From contig NZ_BAFK01000003.1 of NCBI RefSeq assembly GCF_000296695.1, positions 1 through 64,000 of the forward strand: a stretch of 64,000 bases of DNA. Direction: 5' to 3'. Shown here one piece after another: positions 46,751 to 54,500 of this stretch; positions within the stretch are counted from its first letter, which is position 1; each line of letters opens with the position of its first letter. The notes under the pieces were generated by a model. That model ran no database searches and was not told where the DNA came from. It saw only the letters and a list, made by a program, of their open reading frames with translations. The translations under genes and the position numbers were made by a program. This DNA comes from Rheinheimera nanhaiensis E407-8. GTDB taxonomy: Bacteria > Pseudomonadota > Gammaproteobacteria > Enterobacterales > Alteromonadaceae.

Positions 46751-46870
46751 TTATAAATACTGTAATAGCTGTTTTAGCAGCCAGGCCAGCAGGCTAAGCA
46801 GGCCAATGCCGGCCAGATAATACAGCGCAAACCAGGCCAGGCGCGGTAACCTGGTGGACGTGTCTGCCAT
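46751..46870 (-). CDS. DUF2474/CydX-like small subunit of the bd oxidase
   Basis: 39 residues from an ATG that overlaps the stop codon of cydB (TACTAATGG), with GAGG upstream. The sequence has one TM helix (LAWFALYYLAGIGLLSLLAWLLKQLL) preceded by a short basic N-terminus. Proteins of this size and position (DUF2474 or CydX/CydH) stabilise the heme groups of bd oxidases. The overlap means translation is coupled to the B subunit. Confidence 0.8.
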   Translation of the reverse strand: MADTSTRLPRLAWFALYYLAGIGLLSLLAWLLKQLLQYL

Positions 46871-47913
46871 TAGTAGCCCTCCTCAAAGTCTTCTACCTTA
46901 CCGCGAAAGATATGGTAGCCCCACAGCGTATAGGCCAGGATCAGCGGTAAAAAGATCACAATACCCGGCAACATAAACCGCAGGCTGCTGTCTGGTGCTG
47001 CAGCCTGGCCAAAACTGAGTTGGGGCGGCAGTAAATAAGGGAATAAGCCCACCACCAAACCGGCAAAGGCCAGTAAAAACAGCGCTGCGGCCAACCAGAA
47101 TGGCCGGCTTTCATGGCGCGGATTAATGTTGGCTGTCGCCGCAAACTGCCGCTGCACCCGGCCGAGGTCACGAAACAATAACCGTGCGGCCAGCACCGCC
47201 AATAAGGGGAGCAACATTAACAGCAGGCTATGCCAGCCACCAAACCAGCGGCCACGCACCGCCGGCTGAGTGAATAAGGTCCACAGGCTTACCAGCAGCA
47301 TCGCCAGCATGACAAACAGCAGCAAACGCTGGCCATAGCGCGCCGCCTTTTGCTGAATATCGCCCCGGCTTTTCATCGTCAGGTAAGTACAGCCCAGCAA
47401 GGCATAACCGGCCATCACCGCCAGGCCGGTAAACACACTAAAGGGGCTAAGCCAGGGCAGGCCGGCTAAACTCTGGCTGCTATATTCGATGCCTTGCACC
47501 ACGGCGCCCAGCATCAGGCCCTGACAAAATGCCGCAACGCTGGAGCCCATGGCAAAGGCGCGGTTCCACCAGATTTTTGAGCGCAGTGATTTAAAGCGGT
47601 ACTCAAAGGCAACGCCGCGGAAAATCAGCCCGATGAGCATCAGCATAATGGGCAGATACAGCAGCGACGCCAAACTGGCATAGGCCAGCGGGAAGGCGCC
47701 GAATAATATCACGCCGCCAAATACCAGCCAGGTTTCGTTACCATCCCACACATGCGAGATAGAGCGCATTAAGTGGTCGTGTTCGGCATCGCTGTTAAAC
47801 CAGGGGTACAAAATGCCAATCCCCAGGTCAAAGCCATCGAGCAATACATACATTAAGATGGCAAACCCCAGCAGCAGAAAATAAAACAGCGGTAGGCTCA
47901 ATTGCAGTTCCAT
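46870..47913 (-). CDS. cioB: Cytochrome bd / cyanide-insensitive quinol oxidase subunit II
   Basis: 347 residues with about nine TM helices. It starts with an N-terminal LPLFYFLLLGFAILMYVLLDGFDLGIGILYP and contains the conserved WDGNETWLVFGG, the signature of subunit II. The subunit scaffolds the oxygen-reducing subunit I. The ATG overlaps the subunit I stop (TGATG). It is followed by the 39-residue small subunit. The symbol cioB rather than cydB is given because of the partner's features. Confidence 0.93.
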   Translation of the reverse strand: MELQLSLPLFYFLLLGFAILMYVLLDGFDLGIGILYPWFNSDAEHDHLMRSISHVWDGNETWLVFGGVILFGAFPLAYASLASLLYLPIMLMLIGLIFRGVAFEYRFKSLRSKIWWNRAFAMGSSVAAFCQGLMLGAVVQGIEYSSQSLAGLPWLSPFSVFTGLAVMAGYALLGCTYLTMKSRGDIQQKAARYGQRLLLFVMLAMLLVSLWTLFTQPAVRGRWFGGWHSLLLMLLPLLAVLAARLLFRDLGRVQRQFAATANINPRHESRPFWLAAALFLLAFAGLVVGLFPYLLPPQLSFGQAAAPDSSLRFMLPGIVIFLPLILAYTLWGYHIFRGKVEDFEEGY

Positions 47914-49319
47914 CAGTGTTGCTCCTGTGTGGGTTTAAGCTGTTTGGCCAGTGCCACCGCATAACCGGACGCCTTAACGCCAATTAATTGTTGCTGCAGC
48001 TGGCCGATAGACGGTGGCCCTTTGCGGATAAGCTTGCGCATAAAGTACAGGTAAACGCCAAACAGCACGCTGTAAGCCAGCACAAACAGTGTCAGGGAGA
48101 ACAGCACCCGCTCGGCCGGCAGTGGCGAGACTACATCAATAGTGCGTACCAGCCCCTGTACCAGCCAGGGCTGGCGGCCTACTTCTACCACATACCAGCC
48201 GGCCAGTACCGCAATAATGCCGCTGGGTGCCAGATAACTGCAGGCTGTCAAAAACCCATTGCTTTGATACAGCCGGCCGCGCCAGCGCAAATACGTGCCC
48301 ACTACGGCAACCAGGATCATCATAAGGCCAATACCCACCATAATCCGAAACGAGTAGAACACCACTGCCACGTTAGGGCGATCTTCTGCGGGCACGGCTT
48401 TAAGGCCCATCAGCTCACCATTGGCGTCGTGGGTTAAGATCAGGCTGGCCAGCTTGGGAATGCCAATTTCAAACCGGTTTTGCTCGGCTTGCTGGTAAGG
48501 TATAGCAAACAGCAGCAGCGGCGCAGCGGCTTCGCGCTCTGGCCAAATACCCTCCATCGCGGCCAGTTTCACTGGCTGATGCTCTTTTACATTCAGCCCG
48601 TGCAAATCGCCAACAAAGGCTTGTAAGGGGGTCAGGATTAACGCCAGCCACAAGGTCATCGACAGCCCTTTGCGGGCCATGGCTTTATGTTCGCTGTGTT
48701 TAAGCTGCCAGGCGCTGGTTGCCAGTACGACAAAGGTGGCGGTAATAAAAGCCGCCAGCAACATATGGCTAAAACGATAGGGCATCGAAGGGTTAAAAAT
48801 TACCTGCCACCAGCTGTCTACCTGAAATACACCGTCGACAATGATGTGCCCGGCTGGGGTGTGCATCCAGGAGTTAGCCGCGATAATCCAGAAAGCGGAA
48901 ATCCAGGTGCCGATCGCGACGACCAGGGTAGCGAAGAAGTGCAGTTTTGGCCCAACCCGTTGCCAGCCAAACAGCATAATGCCTAAAAAGCCGGCTTCGA
49001 GAAAAAACGCCGTCAGCACTTCGTAGGCCATCAGCGGGCCCAGCACCGCCCCGGTAAGGCGGGAAAACTCCGAAAAATTAGTGCCAAATTCGTATGACAA
49101 CACTATGCCCGACACCACGCCCATACCAAAGGTAATGGCAAAGGGCTTAATCCAGAATTTTGCCAGCTGCAGGTACACCGGGTTAGCGGTTTTTAGCCAT
49201 AGCCCTTCCCAAATGGCAATCAGCGTGGCCAGGCCAATAGTGATCGACGGAAAGATAATGTGAAAACTGACCGTAAAGGCAAACTGTAAACGGGACAGTA
49301 GCGCGGTATCCAGTTCCAT
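47913..49319 (-). CDS. cioA: Cytochrome bd / cyanide-insensitive quinol oxidase subunit I
   Basis: 468 residues from ATG 49319 ([20 protein letters not shown]). The longer frame to 49376 overlaps the upstream micro-ORF and is rejected. It binds hemes b558, b595 and d and oxidises quinol while reducing O2. The heme ligands are in [13 protein letters not shown] (His), the MGVVSG region, and [16 protein letters not shown]. The Q-loop, between about residues 240 and 310, is short, as in Pseudomonas CioA rather than E. coli CydA. This suggests low cyanide sensitivity. It lies downstream of a sigma54 promoter and a 34-residue ORF. Confidence 0.93.
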
Positions 49320-49320
49320 A

Positions 49321-49425
49321 TTACCCCCGGCGCTGTTGCAGGTAACGCCAGGCAGCAGGCGCCAGCGCGACGGCAACTAATAAGGTTAAACTCAATATAT
49401 CGCTGATTAAAATACTGCTGTTCAT
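49321..49425 (-). CDS. 34-residue single-TM protein at the head of the bd-oxidase operon
   Basis: ATG 49425 to TAA 49321-49323, one base before the cioA start. The sequence MNSSILISDILSLTLLVAVA then LAPAAWRYLQQRRG gives one TM helix and a positively charged C-terminus, so the N-terminus is probably outside. Nothing in the standard operon has this place. It may be a leader peptide whose translation opens the cioA start, or an additional small subunit. The GGGGG run before the cioA ATG lies within its last codons. Confidence 0.55.
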   Translation of the reverse strand: MNSSILISDILSLTLLVAVALAPAAWRYLQQRRG

Positions 49426-49466
49426 CTGATGACCCCGGTTGACAGGCGCTTCGCCTACTATAGCAA

Positions 49467-49482
49467 AGCAAAATACTTACCA
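49467..49482 (-). promoter_or_regulatory. Sigma54 (-24/-12) promoter of the bd-oxidase operon
   Basis: On the minus strand the sequence is TGGTAAGTATTTTGCT. It fits the consensus TGGYAYRN4TTGCW at all but one position, with correct GG-to-GC spacing. The predicted transcript start near 49457 is about 32 bases before the first ORF. The neighbouring response regulator is a sigma54 activator. Confidence 0.75.
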
Positions 49483-49544
49483 CTTTATAAGGTGAGTATT
49501 AACCTTTGATTTATATTGCTTTTTCTATTTAGCTTGCGTTGTGT

Positions 49545-49559
49545 GTAAACCGGGTTTAC
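49545..49559. promoter_or_regulatory. Palindromic activator site 1
   Basis: GTAAACCGGGTTTAC, arms GTAAAC/GTTTAC around CGG. It lies about 95 bp upstream of the predicted cio transcript start, normal distance for an enhancer of a sigma54 activator. It is likely bound by the adjacent response regulator. Confidence 0.65.
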
Positions 49560-49579
49560 GATCTGCAGCCGTTCATGTT

Positions 49580-49594
49580 GTAAACGAGGTTTAC
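49580..49594. promoter_or_regulatory. Palindromic activator site 2
   Basis: GTAAACGAGGTTTAC within TGTAAACGAGGTTTACA. Same arms as site 1, centres 35 bp apart. It ends one base before the GTG start of the kinase gene, so binding here could also repress the kinase-regulator operon. Confidence 0.65.
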
Positions 49595-49595
49595 A

Positions 49596-51446
49596 GTGTC
49601 GCTCAGTTTCGCCTTTGAGATCAGCATGTGGCTGACCAGTGCTTGCGCGGTATTGCTGGCCGGCTGGTTACTTTTGCAGGGCCAGCGCCAGGCGGCAATG
49701 CCAGCGTTGGCGGGCTTTGCCGCCATGATGGCGCTATGGTGTAGCGGCCACATTGCTATTTTGCACCAGCTGCCACAACTGGGCGTGGCACTGGTATTGG
49801 CCAACCCGTTAATGCCGATGTTTTTTCTGCATTTTGCGCTGCAATTTACCGCCCGGCACCAACCGCGCTGGCTGTTGCCGCTGTTATACAGCCTAACTTT
49901 GCTGGTGATGCTGGTCAGCTGGCTGGCCCCCGGCGGGGCCGTTAAGCAAACCGCTGGCTTTGACGGTTTCTTTGTCTTCACCGGCGTTGGCTGGTTTAAC
50001 CTGCTGTATACGGTGGTACTGGGCATCGCCGCGCATGCGGTGCTTTGGCAAGGCTGGCGTCAGCACAGCGGTAATAAGCGCCGCTCTATCGTGGCGATGT
50101 TTCTGGCCGGTGGCTGGGGCTTGTTACTGGCTACCAGCTTTGTGTTTCCGTCGCTTGGCCTTAGCTGGTACCCCTATCCGATGTTGCTGCTGCCCAGTTA
50201 CTTATTGCTGTTAGTCTACGGCGTGGTGCGCTATCAGGTGCTGGCGATTAATGCCTTTGCCAACAAGGCGCTGCTATGGCTGGCGATGTTGCTGTTAGTG
50301 CTGGCGCTGATGGCGCTGTTAAGTGCCTTGCTGGGGCAACTGGGGATGCAGGCTTTGGCGGCGGTGCCGGCCAGTCAGTTGTGGTTATATTCGGCGCTGG
50401 TATTGCTGTTGTCGGCGGCAGGCTACCGGCCGCTGGCTACCTTGGCGCGCCGGCTAATTTATCCGGGGCTGACACTGAGTGAAAGCTTGCTGGCGCAGTG
50501 GCGCTCACGCCTGCAGCAGTGTACTGACTGGCAGCAACTTAGCAGCCTGGCCAGCCAGCTGCTGTCCGAGCAGTTAAGGCAACAGGTGACAGTGACATTG
50601 CCGCTAGCAGGGCGCAGCAGCACTACGCTGAATATCTGTTGCCAGCGGGATAATAACGGCTGGCACTACGAGCTGCAGGGCTGGGATGACGTCACGCCCG
50701 GTTACCGGTTGCAGGGCGAAATTTTTGCCCAGTTGCTACTGGCCAGCTGTAACAGCTTAGAGCAGTCATTACAGCTGGCAACGGCTGAGCGCAAACGGCT
50801 GGATCAACAGCACCTGGTCGAGCTCGGGGCGTTATCGGCGGCTATGGCGCATGAGCTGCGTAACCCGCTGAATATTATTGCTATGGCATCTGCTTCAACG
50901 TCAGCTGAGGTGCGGGGCCATATTCAGCAGCAGCTAAAGCGCGCCGACCGGCTGATTGCCGATCTGTTAAGTTACTCCGGACAGTTACAGCTACATTGCA
51001 CTGACGTTGCGGTTAAAGCGCTGGTATACAGTGTGATAAGCCAGCAAGACTGGCATGGTGTGGCCTGCCGTGTTGAGCTGCCGGACGATCTCAGTGTCTA
51101 TGCCGACAGTTATCGCCTGCAGCAGGTGCTGATTAATTTGCTGGATAATGCCCTGGCGTTTTGCCGCAATCAGCCCGGTGCTGAAATTTGCCTGCAAAGC
51201 CGCCGCCAACAGCACAAAGTGTGGCTGTATGTGCACAACAATGGCCCGGCCATTGACGCTGCGCAGCAGGCCAGCCTGTTTCAGCCTTTTGTCAGTAAAC
51301 GTGCCGGTGGCAGCGGCCTGGGCCTGGCCATAGTGCGGCGCATTATGCAGGCGCATGGCGGCGAGGTAAAACACCGCACTGATCTGGGCTGGCCGGTCAG
51401 CTTTGAGCTGGAATTTAACTCACCACAGGAAGCCAAACATGACTAA
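49596..51446 (+). CDS. Membrane sensor histidine kinase
   Basis: 616 residues from GTG. Residues 1 to about 290 hold seven or eight TM helices, an intramembrane sensing module as in PrsK-like and other 7TM kinases. A linker follows, then HisKA with His419 in AAMAHELRNPLNII, and HATPase_c with INLLDNALAF and the G-box GSGLGLAIV. There is no PAS or periplasmic domain, so the signal is probably the membrane or quinone state. It overlaps the sigma54 regulator gene by 8 bases and is divergent from the cio operon. Confidence 0.88.
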   Translation: MSLSFAFEISMWLTSACAVLLAGWLLLQGQRQAAMPALAGFAAMMALWCSGHIAILHQLPQLGVALVLANPLMPMFFLHFALQFTARHQPRWLLPLLYSLTLLVMLVSWLAPGGAVKQTAGFDGFFVFTGVGWFNLLYTVVLGIAAHAVLWQGWRQHSGNKRRSIVAMFLAGGWGLLLATSFVFPSLGLSWYPYPMLLLPSYLLLLVYGVVRYQVLAINAFANKALLWLAMLLLVLALMALLSALLGQLGMQALAAVPASQLWLYSALVLLLSAAGYRPLATLARRLIYPGLTLSESLLAQWRSRLQQCTDWQQLSSLASQLLSEQLRQQVTVTLPLAGRSSTTLNICCQRDNNGWHYELQGWDDVTPGYRLQGEIFAQLLLASCNSLEQSLQLATAERKRLDQQHLVELGALSAAMAHELRNPLNIIAMASASTSAEVRGHIQQQLKRADRLIADLLSYSGQLQLHCTDVAVKALVYSVISQQDWHGVACRVELPDDLSVYADSYRLQQVLINLLDNALAFCRNQPGAEICLQSRRQQHKVWLYVHNNGPAIDAAQQASLFQPFVSKRAGGSGLGLAIVRRIMQAHGGEVKHRTDLGWPVSFELEFNSPQEAKHD

Positions 51447-52800
51447 TGGCCGTATTTTACTGGTCGATGATGAACCGGCCTTTCGCCAGTTGGCGCAAAG
51501 CTGGTTACAAAACAGTGGCTATCAGGTGCAGACTGCCGCCGATTTAGCGGCTGCCCGGGCACAGCTAACCGGCTTTGATGCTGATTTAATTTTGCTGGAT
51601 TTATCACTGCCACCACAATTTGACCCCCAGCATACGCTGGCCGCGCTGGCCGACTTTAGCAGCCGGCCGGTGATTATTTTAACCGGCCATGCCGAGCGAC
51701 AACTGGCGCTGGATGCCATCGCGCAGGGCGCCTGGGATTTTATTGCCAAACCGGTCGACCCGGACTTACTGGCGGTGGTGATCAAACGGGCGCTGAATAA
51801 GCATCAACTGGACACTGAGCTTAAACAGTTAAAAGCGTCCAGCCTCGATGGTTTAAACCGGTTGATTGGCGCTTCAGCGCCGATGGAAGCGATGCGTACG
51901 CTAATTCAGCGTATTGCACCGACCGATGTCCGGGTATTGGTCACGGGCCCGTCCGGTACCGGTAAAGAAGTGGTGTCCAAAGCACTGCATCAGCTTAGCC
52001 GCCGGGCAGACAAGCCGTTTATCTCAGTGCATTGTGGCGCCATCCCGGCCGATCTGCTGGAAAGCGAGTTGTTTGGTTATGTCAAAGGTGCTTTTACCGG
52101 TGCCGACAAAGACCGGCCGGGGCTGTTAAAGCTGGCCGATGGTGGCACCTTGTTTCTGGATGAAATAGGCGAAATGCCACTGCCGATGCAGGTAAAGCTG
52201 CTGCGGGTGTTACAGGAAGGCACTTTCTTTGCCGTTGGCGGGCGCGAGCAGCAAAGAATTGATGTGCGGCTGATTTCGGCTACCAATGCCAACTTGCCGC
52301 AGCTGGTAAAACAAGGCCAGTTCCGTGAAGATTTATACTACCGCATCAAAGGTATTACGCTGGAGACGGTGGCGCTCAGCGAGCGGCGCCAGGATATTCC
52401 GCTGTTGTTACAGCATTTTCTCGAGCTGCACAGCAAACAGCAGGGCCAGCGCTTGCAACTGGACAGCACAGCGCTGAGCTGGTTTTTGCAGCGTGACTGG
52501 CCGGGTAATATCCGCGAGCTGAAAAATACCCTGGAAAGCGTGGCTGCCGTAGCCCAGGATGGCGTGATCAGCATGGCTGATATCAGCCTGTTGCATCCAC
52601 AAGACAGTGAGCAGCCGGCGGCGGCTGCGCTGCCCGCTAATGGCTTATTACTGGATGACGCTGTACAACGGCTTGAAATACGCTTGATTAAACAGGCACT
52701 TGCACAAACTGAAGGCAATAAGAGCCAGGCAGCACGGCTGCTGGGGCTGTCGCGGCAGGGCTTACTGAAGAAAATTGACCGCTACCGGCTTAGCGTCTAA
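51439..52800 (+). CDS. Sigma54-dependent response regulator
   Basis: 453 residues from ATG 51439 (MTNGRILLVDDEPAF); an earlier ATG-free extension within the kinase gene is rejected. Receiver domain with phosphorylatable Asp54, AAA+ domain with Walker A GPSGTGKE (170-177), the sigma54-contacting GAFTGA (217-222), and Walker B LFLDEIGEMP. A Fis-type HTH follows at the C-terminus (GNKSQAARLLGLSRQGLLKK). NtrC family. It should be phosphorylated by the upstream kinase and activate the sigma54 promoter of the cio operon. Confidence 0.93.
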   Translation: MTNGRILLVDDEPAFRQLAQSWLQNSGYQVQTAADLAAARAQLTGFDADLILLDLSLPPQFDPQHTLAALADFSSRPVIILTGHAERQLALDAIAQGAWDFIAKPVDPDLLAVVIKRALNKHQLDTELKQLKASSLDGLNRLIGASAPMEAMRTLIQRIAPTDVRVLVTGPSGTGKEVVSKALHQLSRRADKPFISVHCGAIPADLLESELFGYVKGAFTGADKDRPGLLKLADGGTLFLDEIGEMPLPMQVKLLRVLQEGTFFAVGGREQQRIDVRLISATNANLPQLVKQGQFREDLYYRIKGITLETVALSERRQDIPLLLQHFLELHSKQQGQRLQLDSTALSWFLQRDWPGNIRELKNTLESVAAVAQDGVISMADISLLHPQDSEQPAAAALPANGLLLDDAVQRLEIRLIKQALAQTEGNKSQAARLLGLSRQGLLKKIDRYRLSV

Positions 52801-53894: not shown

Positions 53895-54500
53895 TCAGGC
53901 AATTTGCTGATCGTCATTCATACCGCTGTACCAGGCTTTAAACAGCACTTTTTCCAGCGCCTGGCGCAAGGCTTCGTTAATGGGTAAATGCTGTTTACCC
54001 AGTTCATAATCCAGCTCGTTCACCAGCTCTTTGGCTTTAAGCATCATCGGCGGCGGATCGGATTCCAGCGCAATCAGGCTGTCCTGATAAGCGGCCGGTT
54101 TGTCGGCTTTAATCACCTTGCACAACGATAAAGCGGTTTTACCCTGTTTGTCGCGATAGCCTGCCGCGCCAAATAAACGGCAAATGCTTGGCCGCTGCTG
54201 ATACACACTGCACTGGCCCTGTTTGCCGTCAAACGACAGCTTCTGGTAAAAAAAACAGCCCGCAGGCTCTGTTAACTCTTCGAGTTGTGTCAGTGTTTGT
54301 TCTGCTTTACCTTGATCGAACAAGTGTAATGCCAGCGGTAACATCTCCAGCACCGTCGCTTCTATCGTCGGTTGCAAACAGCATTCACCACAACCAGAGC
54401 GGCAGCCAAGGCCACGCTGTTGCTGATACGCCGAGAATGTTTCCGCTATTTCGCCATACACAGCCTCAACACGACGCGATAATTCACGCAGCCGTTGCAT
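53895..54500 (-). CDS. YkgJ-family cysteine-cluster protein
   Basis: 201 residues. The N-terminal cysteine motif CRSGCGECCLQP (about residues 32-43) and later cysteines (PAGCFFYQ, GQCSVYQQRPSICRLFG) match the zinc- or iron-binding CxxxCxxCC...C pattern of the YkgJ (UPF0153) family. The function is unknown, and the protein is soluble. Confidence 0.85.
   Translation of the reverse strand: MQRLRELSRRVEAVYGEIAETFSAYQQQRGLGCRSGCGECCLQPTIEATVLEMLPLALHLFDQGKAEQTLTQLEELTEPAGCFFYQKLSFDGKQGQCSVYQQRPSICRLFGAAGYRDKQGKTALSLCKVIKADKPAAYQDSLIALESDPPPMMLKAKELVNELDYELGKQHLPINEALRQALEKVLFKAWYSGMNDDQQIA

Follow-up and report, generated by a model that had tools for sequence, protein, structure and literature searches.

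The window, i.e., the whole stretch of 64,000 nucleotides analysed here, is the start of contig NZ_BAFK01000003.1 of Rheinheimera nanhaiensis E407-8, whose assembly has a size of 4.0 Mb (genome G000). It includes the cioAB operon for a cytochrome bd oxidase, accompanied by two small open reading frames (ORFs), and the genes for a sensor histidine kinase and an NtrC-family response regulator, with a compact intergenic region in between (Table 1). The kinase and regulator genes overlap by 8 nt, and the pair is divergent from the cioAB operon. This gene order had been proposed in the original prediction, which was made from the sequence without database searches, and is confirmed.

Table 1. Genes and predicted regulatory features of the cio locus (positions in the window)
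Feature	Position	Strand	Basis or remark
CydX-like small ORF, 39 aa, one hydrophobic stretch	46751-46870	-	translation; overlaps cioB end
cioB, bd oxidase subunit II	46870-47913	-	PF02322, 308.5 bits; TIGR00203, 145.8 bits (above cut-off 117.3)
cioA, bd oxidase subunit I, 468 aa, short Q-loop form	47913-49319	-	PF01654, 554.8 bits
34-codon small ORF MNSSILISDILSLTLLVAVALAPAAWRYLQQRRG, one hydrophobic stretch	49321-49425	-	conserved across loci
-24/-12 (sigma54) element TGGTAAGTATTTTGCT	49467-49482	-	predicted transcription start near 49457
IHF-like site TTAACCTTTGATT (1 mismatch) with overlapping degenerate FNR/Anr box TTGATTTATATTGC (3 mismatches)	49499-49519		conserved block
Palindrome 1, predicted upstream activating site, GTAAACCGGGTTTAC	49545-49559		exact GTAAAC-N3-GTTTAC
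Palindrome 2, predicted upstream activating site, GTAAACGAGGTTTAC	49580-49594		exact GTAAAC-N3-GTTTAC; 35 bp from palindrome 1
Sensor histidine kinase, 616 aa, HisKA_7TM sensor	49596-51446	+	PF16927, PF00512, PF02518; alignment of 23
NtrC-family response regulator, 453 aa	51439-52800	+	PF00072, PF00158, PF25601, PF02954; tree of 86

The element TGGTAAGTATTTTGCT has the form GG-N10-GC and differs at one position from the consensus TGGYRYRNNNNTTGCW; 62 nt lie between its -24 part and palindrome 1. When up to two mismatches were allowed, eight palindrome matches were found in the window against 2.4 expected, the exact ones being palindromes 1 and 2 only. These are also the only exact GTAAAC-N3-GTTTAC copies in the assembly; the pair of identical palindromes reported near the kinase start is confirmed. 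The 17-nt box at palindrome 2 reads TGTAAACGAGGTTTACA, and palindrome 1 ends in TTTACG. A single base separates palindrome 2 from the GTG start codon of the kinase gene, and the palindrome core holds a GAGG resembling a ribosome-binding site. A regulator bound to palindrome 2 would therefore cover the ribosome-site region of the kinase gene and would probably curb its own expression. Elsewhere in the window, GTAAATGCTGTTTAC (53984-53998, within the ORF at 53895-54500) differs from the palindrome by one mismatch, probably by chance.

The promoter and the palindromes stand above chance because they are conserved in relatives. Among 98 genomes searched for regulator orthologues, the window's own counted in, close orthologues were present in 17 others (13 of the same genus and 4 outside it, with 55–87% identity), and in all 17 orthologous loci, which represent four genera, the kinase and regulator genes diverge from cioAB. 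When the 14 genus members were aligned, the -24/-12 element and both palindromes appeared as islands amid more variable sequence; the palindromes are 35 bp apart in every one of them and both exact in 11. With loci of Marinomonas, Nitrincola and Hahella added, 30 distinct intergenic regions were obtained (duplicates removed, both cioA and kinase starts required), of which 18 were picked by protein similarity and 12 by a palindrome scan; for these 12, two sites 27–41 bp apart were a selection condition, but the promoter was not. The original prediction would have been refuted by a lack of palindrome conservation; the relatives do retain both sites in front of cio, spaced 33–36 bp apart in 30/30 regions (up to two mismatches per site). 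GG-N10-GC occurs 54–65 nt from palindrome 1 in 29/30 (mean 0.36 and maximum 3 in 1000 shuffled sets), and in two distant loci (L046 and L048) the element is nearer to the consensus, reading TGGCACGACCTTTGC. It should be added that rpoN is present in the genome of the window (520.7 bits, cut-off 277).

Within the genus, genomes with and without the regulator were compared. The regulator occurs in 14 of the 31 genus genomes, and each of these 14 has one or more exact palindromes at cio. The 17 genomes that lack the regulator carry another cioA; four of them have a single exact palindrome, in no case close to a cioA-like gene. In the 14 regulator-free genomes read, no palindrome was found in front of the best cioA-like gene (50–53% identity); three of the 17, with a cioA-like gene of only 36–38%, and the second cioA-like copies (51–52%) of five of the 14 were left out. 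The same 14 upstream regions showed no membrane-like small ORF among the ORFs listed, and the -24/-12-like matches seen in five of them lie, as judged by eye, inside an upstream reading frame.

A wider scan covered 84,980 species, each represented by a single genome, in a collection that may omit the window's own genome, and looked for one exact plus one slightly relaxed palindrome with 12–26 nt between them. Among the resulting 53 stretches, the kinase is located within 1.5 kb in 26; cioA is visible in 23 of these, and the other three end short of the cioA position. The kinase adjoins 26 of the 28 places with 33–36 bp spacing. The remaining 27 stretches mostly have different spacing (12 at 27, 3 at 28, 4 at 38 and 4 at 41 bp), and in the three that were opened (L060, L063 and L074, by eye) the sites lie beside MarR-like regulator genes, with cupins in two. 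Double GTAAAC-N3-GTTTAC-type sites with 27–28 bp spacing were observed in Acidobacteria (L052, L059, L061, L063, L066, L074, L081, L085, L091, L093, L094, L097 and L098); in L063 and L074 they are situated between the MarR-like gene and genes for cupins, where these half-sites serve an unrelated purpose. Three contigs of one Legionella metagenome genome (L057, L065 and L087) bear a double palindrome with 41 bp spacing, perhaps as a repeat family. In the class-wide set, the kinase sensor (at an E-value of 1e-10) and the double palindrome were each found in 1 of 369 genomes, the window's own, and the module is therefore rare.

A TTGAT-type block occupies a near-fixed position between the promoter and the palindromes. 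It contains an IHF-like site in 29/30 regions at up to two mismatches (shuffles: mean 4.4, maximum 12) and in 15/30 at up to one (mean 0.54, maximum 4). An FNR box with up to two mismatches was detected in 15/30 regions, three of the boxes being perfect (shuffles: mean 0.39, maximum 3), and lies there 38.5–41.5 bp from palindrome 1; the window is not among these 15, its block matching IHF with one mismatch and FNR with three. A bend introduced by IHF between enhancer and sigma54 promoter is a textbook arrangement. Hence, global regulators may take part at the cio promoter, and FNR/Anr may add an oxygen input in relatives. The sigma54/two-component circuit had been called self-contained; its wiring finds strong support in phylogenetic footprinting, but that word is too strong in view of the IHF-like (29/30) and FNR-type (15/30) sites. 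In Marinomonas, an FNR-type box lies 104.5–109.5 bp from palindrome 1 in 8/9 regions (L058, L067, L070, L072, L076, L080, L089 and L099). Its position, near the predicted sigma54 start and unlike that in the other genera, might point to repression there.

The regulator consists of a receiver (PF00072, 78.5 bits), an AAA+ domain with GAFTGA (PF00158, 233.8 bits) and a Fis-type helix-turn-helix with SRQGLLKK in the recognition helix (PF02954, 46.4 bits), which is the composition of an NtrC-family sigma54 response regulator; GAFTGA and Walker A are intact in the translation. The operon adjoining it is cioAB, this statement referring to the adjacent operon only. The best NCBIfam model was PrsR (TIGR02915, 396.4 bits), with NtrC at 388.3. 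Assignment to PrsR was rejected, since the score is below the equivalog cut-off of 502.6. A separate PrsR with 691 bits, above the cut-off, is encoded in the genome of the window and adjoins a 674-aa membrane kinase that is PrsK-like in appearance (unscored). When 86 regulators were placed in a tree, the 28 cio-linked sequences grouped together in a single clade (100/100), separately from 43 rows of PrsR or PrsR-like proteins; of the latter, 30 exceed the cut-off and the others were chosen by similarity. In this tree, 2 of the 15 outgroup rows are wrong-frame ORFs, the bootstrap is unsettled and the cio clade joins a long-branched outgroup. The recognition helices read [ST]RQGL[LI]KK in cio-linked regulators vs. 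[ST]RPT[LMI]Y in PrsR.

The kinase meets PF16927 with 33.3 bits (cut-off 28.6) and has PF00512 and PF02518 in addition, as a HisKA_7TM sensor kinase does, with about nine predicted membrane helices. Its kinase boxes are intact in the alignment of 23 sequences. Identity amounts to 41–87% over the first 300 residues and 43–80% over the whole protein, and residues invariant in the membrane half of all 23 kinases include W48-C49-x-G51-H52, N70-P71-x-x-P74 and H147, among others. A model of residues 1–300 (pLDDT, the predicted local distance difference test, of 79.5) resembles bundles like those of G-protein-coupled receptors and is little informative. Given the strong conservation of the membrane half, our best guess, a tentative one, is that the kinase would respond to a quinone pool in the reduced state or to blockage of the main oxidase. 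A bolder idea, which we regard as doubtful, is that the kinase represents a new class of respiratory sensor, in which the seven-helix domain would read the membrane redox or ligand state (quinol or heme) directly and drive, via sigma54 looping, an oxidase operon in which cioA is preceded by the gene for a small membrane subunit not described before.

Based on the above results, it is very likely that a dedicated sensor–regulator pair controls the CIO-type (cyanide-insensitive oxidase) bd operon through a sigma54 promoter, and we suggest the following sequence of events. The seven-transmembrane (7TM) kinase would sense the state of the membrane or respiratory chain and phosphorylate the regulator. 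The phosphorylated regulator would bind both palindromes, the DNA would bend at the IHF-like block, and the AAA+ domain, by its GAFTGA loop, would open the sigma54 polymerase at the -24/-12 element. The transcript is expected to cover the 34-codon ORF, cioA, cioB and the CydX-like ORF, while the regulator on palindrome 2 probably limits its own expression. Since sigma54 promoters are silent without an activator, such a circuit would keep a backup oxidase under tight on/off control.

Several observations weigh against this interpretation. At up to one mismatch, there are 8 -24/-12 matches in the window, compared with 18 expected from shuffles, and the bare match is not significant; the near-consensus promoter of the original prediction thus stands on its placement in 29/30 regions and not on the match in the window, which is no better than chance. 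The Algicola locus L049 has the palindromes without GG-N10-GC at the expected place, and kinship among the sequences inflates every conservation count. Eight of the 14 genus genomes with the regulator (G015, G013, G027, G030, G009, G014, G024 and G029) have a total of 12 further exact palindromes at places other than cio, the backwards control giving 7 in 31 genomes; these sites may have arisen by chance or may mark a regulon that is broader in relatives. Finally, the FNR/Anr-type box in half of the regions leaves space for a sigma70 promoter.

If such a sigma70 promoter under FNR/Anr mainly drove cioAB, the pair would tune it little or control other genes. The boxes at 38.5–41.5 bp in 15/30 regions and those of Marinomonas fit this, but the box of the window is degenerate, the -24/-12 element is kept more widely (29/30), and the genome of the window contains no exact site for the regulator besides the two palindromes; we therefore consider it unlikely. 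It could also be argued that the palindromes are merely an autoregulatory operator of the kinase–regulator genes, with cio as a bystander. The closeness of palindrome 2 to the kinase start codon, including the GAGG, would suit an operator, and in about half of the regions the FNR-type box has a position that could suit a class II activator acting on a kinase promoter. However, the -24/-12 element faces cio at 54–65 nt from palindrome 1 in 29/30 regions, and activators of the NtrC type depend on a target of this kind, which makes a purely autoregulatory role very unlikely.

The similarity to PrsR raises the question of whether the true PrsR of the genome (691 bits), and not the adjacent regulator, binds the palindromes. 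PrsR boxes, according to Haft 2006 (PMC1569441), have 17 nt ending in TTTACA and a spacer of 62.8 nt (standard deviation 10.6) before -24/-12, and the cio locus matches this layout by the 17-nt box at palindrome 2 and the 62 nt between palindrome 1 and the -24 part. Nevertheless, regulator-free genomes of the genus encode relatives of 40–44% identity, presumably including PrsR, and yet no palindrome occurs at the cioA-like genes read. In addition, TGTCAGATTACTTTACA, not the cio palindrome, precedes the -24/-12 match of a PEP-CTERM gene in the window's genome (L163), and the recognition helices differ as described above. Binding by PrsR thus appears extremely improbable, and control by the adjacent sensor–regulator pair is preferred.

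As to the target operon, the Q-loop of cioA is about 60 residues shorter than that of E. coli bd-II CydA (alignment to 7ose). Judged by its CydA/CydB subunits with a short Q-loop, the oxidase is of the CIO-type bd, and its homology suggests cyanide insensitivity. A single subunit I gene was found in the genome of the window by the cioA search; among the 13 other genus genomes with the regulator, 12 additionally have a bd-I-like gene of 35–37% identity. A small ORF begins at the end of cioB in all 31 listed loci (near-duplicates included), and 29 of these 31 CydX-like ORFs contain WF..LY (by eye); the CydX-like ORF gave no Pfam family above the cut-off and no NCBIfam match.

The 34-codon ORF is the first gene downstream of the promoter and stops just short of the ATG of cioA. 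At this place, a small ORF of membrane-like character is present in the window and in 26 of 27 other loci, the hydrophobic stretch being recognized by eye (L033-L048, L058, L062, L067, L068, L070, L072, L084, L089, L099 and L100); in some Marinomonas it is up to 85 nt away from cioA, and in L049 none was seen among the ORFs listed, at most three per locus. The 14 genus copies align without gaps, with 6, 13 and 0 invariant sites at the three codon positions (of 33 each). The ratio of nonsynonymous to synonymous substitution rates (dN/dS) is 0.19, as calculated from 45 usable pairs of 91, the others being dropped for dS out of range or calculation failure. No match to this ORF was obtained in Pfam or NCBIfam. 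This single-helix small ORF is a candidate for a new accessory protein of CIO-type oxidases, apparently one not yet described.

To our knowledge, induction of bd oxidases has been little studied in these genera. The sigma54 promoter is conserved in several bacterial genera, most of them marine, and, if the proposed control is true, would switch on a backup oxygen-using oxidase together with two tiny membrane proteins. The conserved geometry of palindromes, -24/-12 element and regulator gives a genetic handle for finding the signal of the 7TM kinase.

Among the top matches listed from the open-access literature, in which subscription journals are mostly not covered, no paper reported a sigma54 two-component system wired to a bd oxidase. 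No precedent appeared in passages of PMC10164946 (Cupriavidus necator cydA2B2), PMC7315123 (Acinetobacter FisR), PMC5322542, PMC11049912, PMC9850573, PMC11742914, PMC10256816, PMC3244429 and PMC6825135. Within this scope, the statement of the original prediction that the arrangement is not a standard one holds, also given the single class-wide genome with the kinase sensor. The components are known, and what appears to be new, as far as the open-access literature found is concerned, is their wiring to a bd oxidase.

RoxR is a regulator with a receiver and a helix-turn-helix and is not known to have an AAA+ domain or to depend on sigma54. In contrast, the regulator of the window possesses a sigma54 AAA+ domain and adjoins cio, and does not belong to the RoxR type. 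What is alike is two-component control combined with an oxygen regulator for a CIO-type oxidase: according to PMC11742914, the CIO oxidase is under RoxS/RoxR and Anr in Pseudomonas aeruginosa and Burkholderia cenocepacia. A sigma54 activator gene divergent from, and next to, its target operon is described for FisR (sulfide operon, PMC7315123) and NitA (nit1C cluster, PMC11049912), which resembles the cio locus; in the passages considered, however, the two are not described as kinase partners, and their targets are not bd oxidases. The PrsK/PrsR system (TIGR02916/TIGR02915) is similar in its tandem of membrane kinase and NtrC-type regulator and in the layout of box, spacer and -24/-12, while the cio system differs from it in score, clade and recognition helix and in having a bd oxidase as its target instead of PEP-CTERM genes. 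By these sequence features, the regulator of the cio locus is one that would work like PrsR but is not PrsR.

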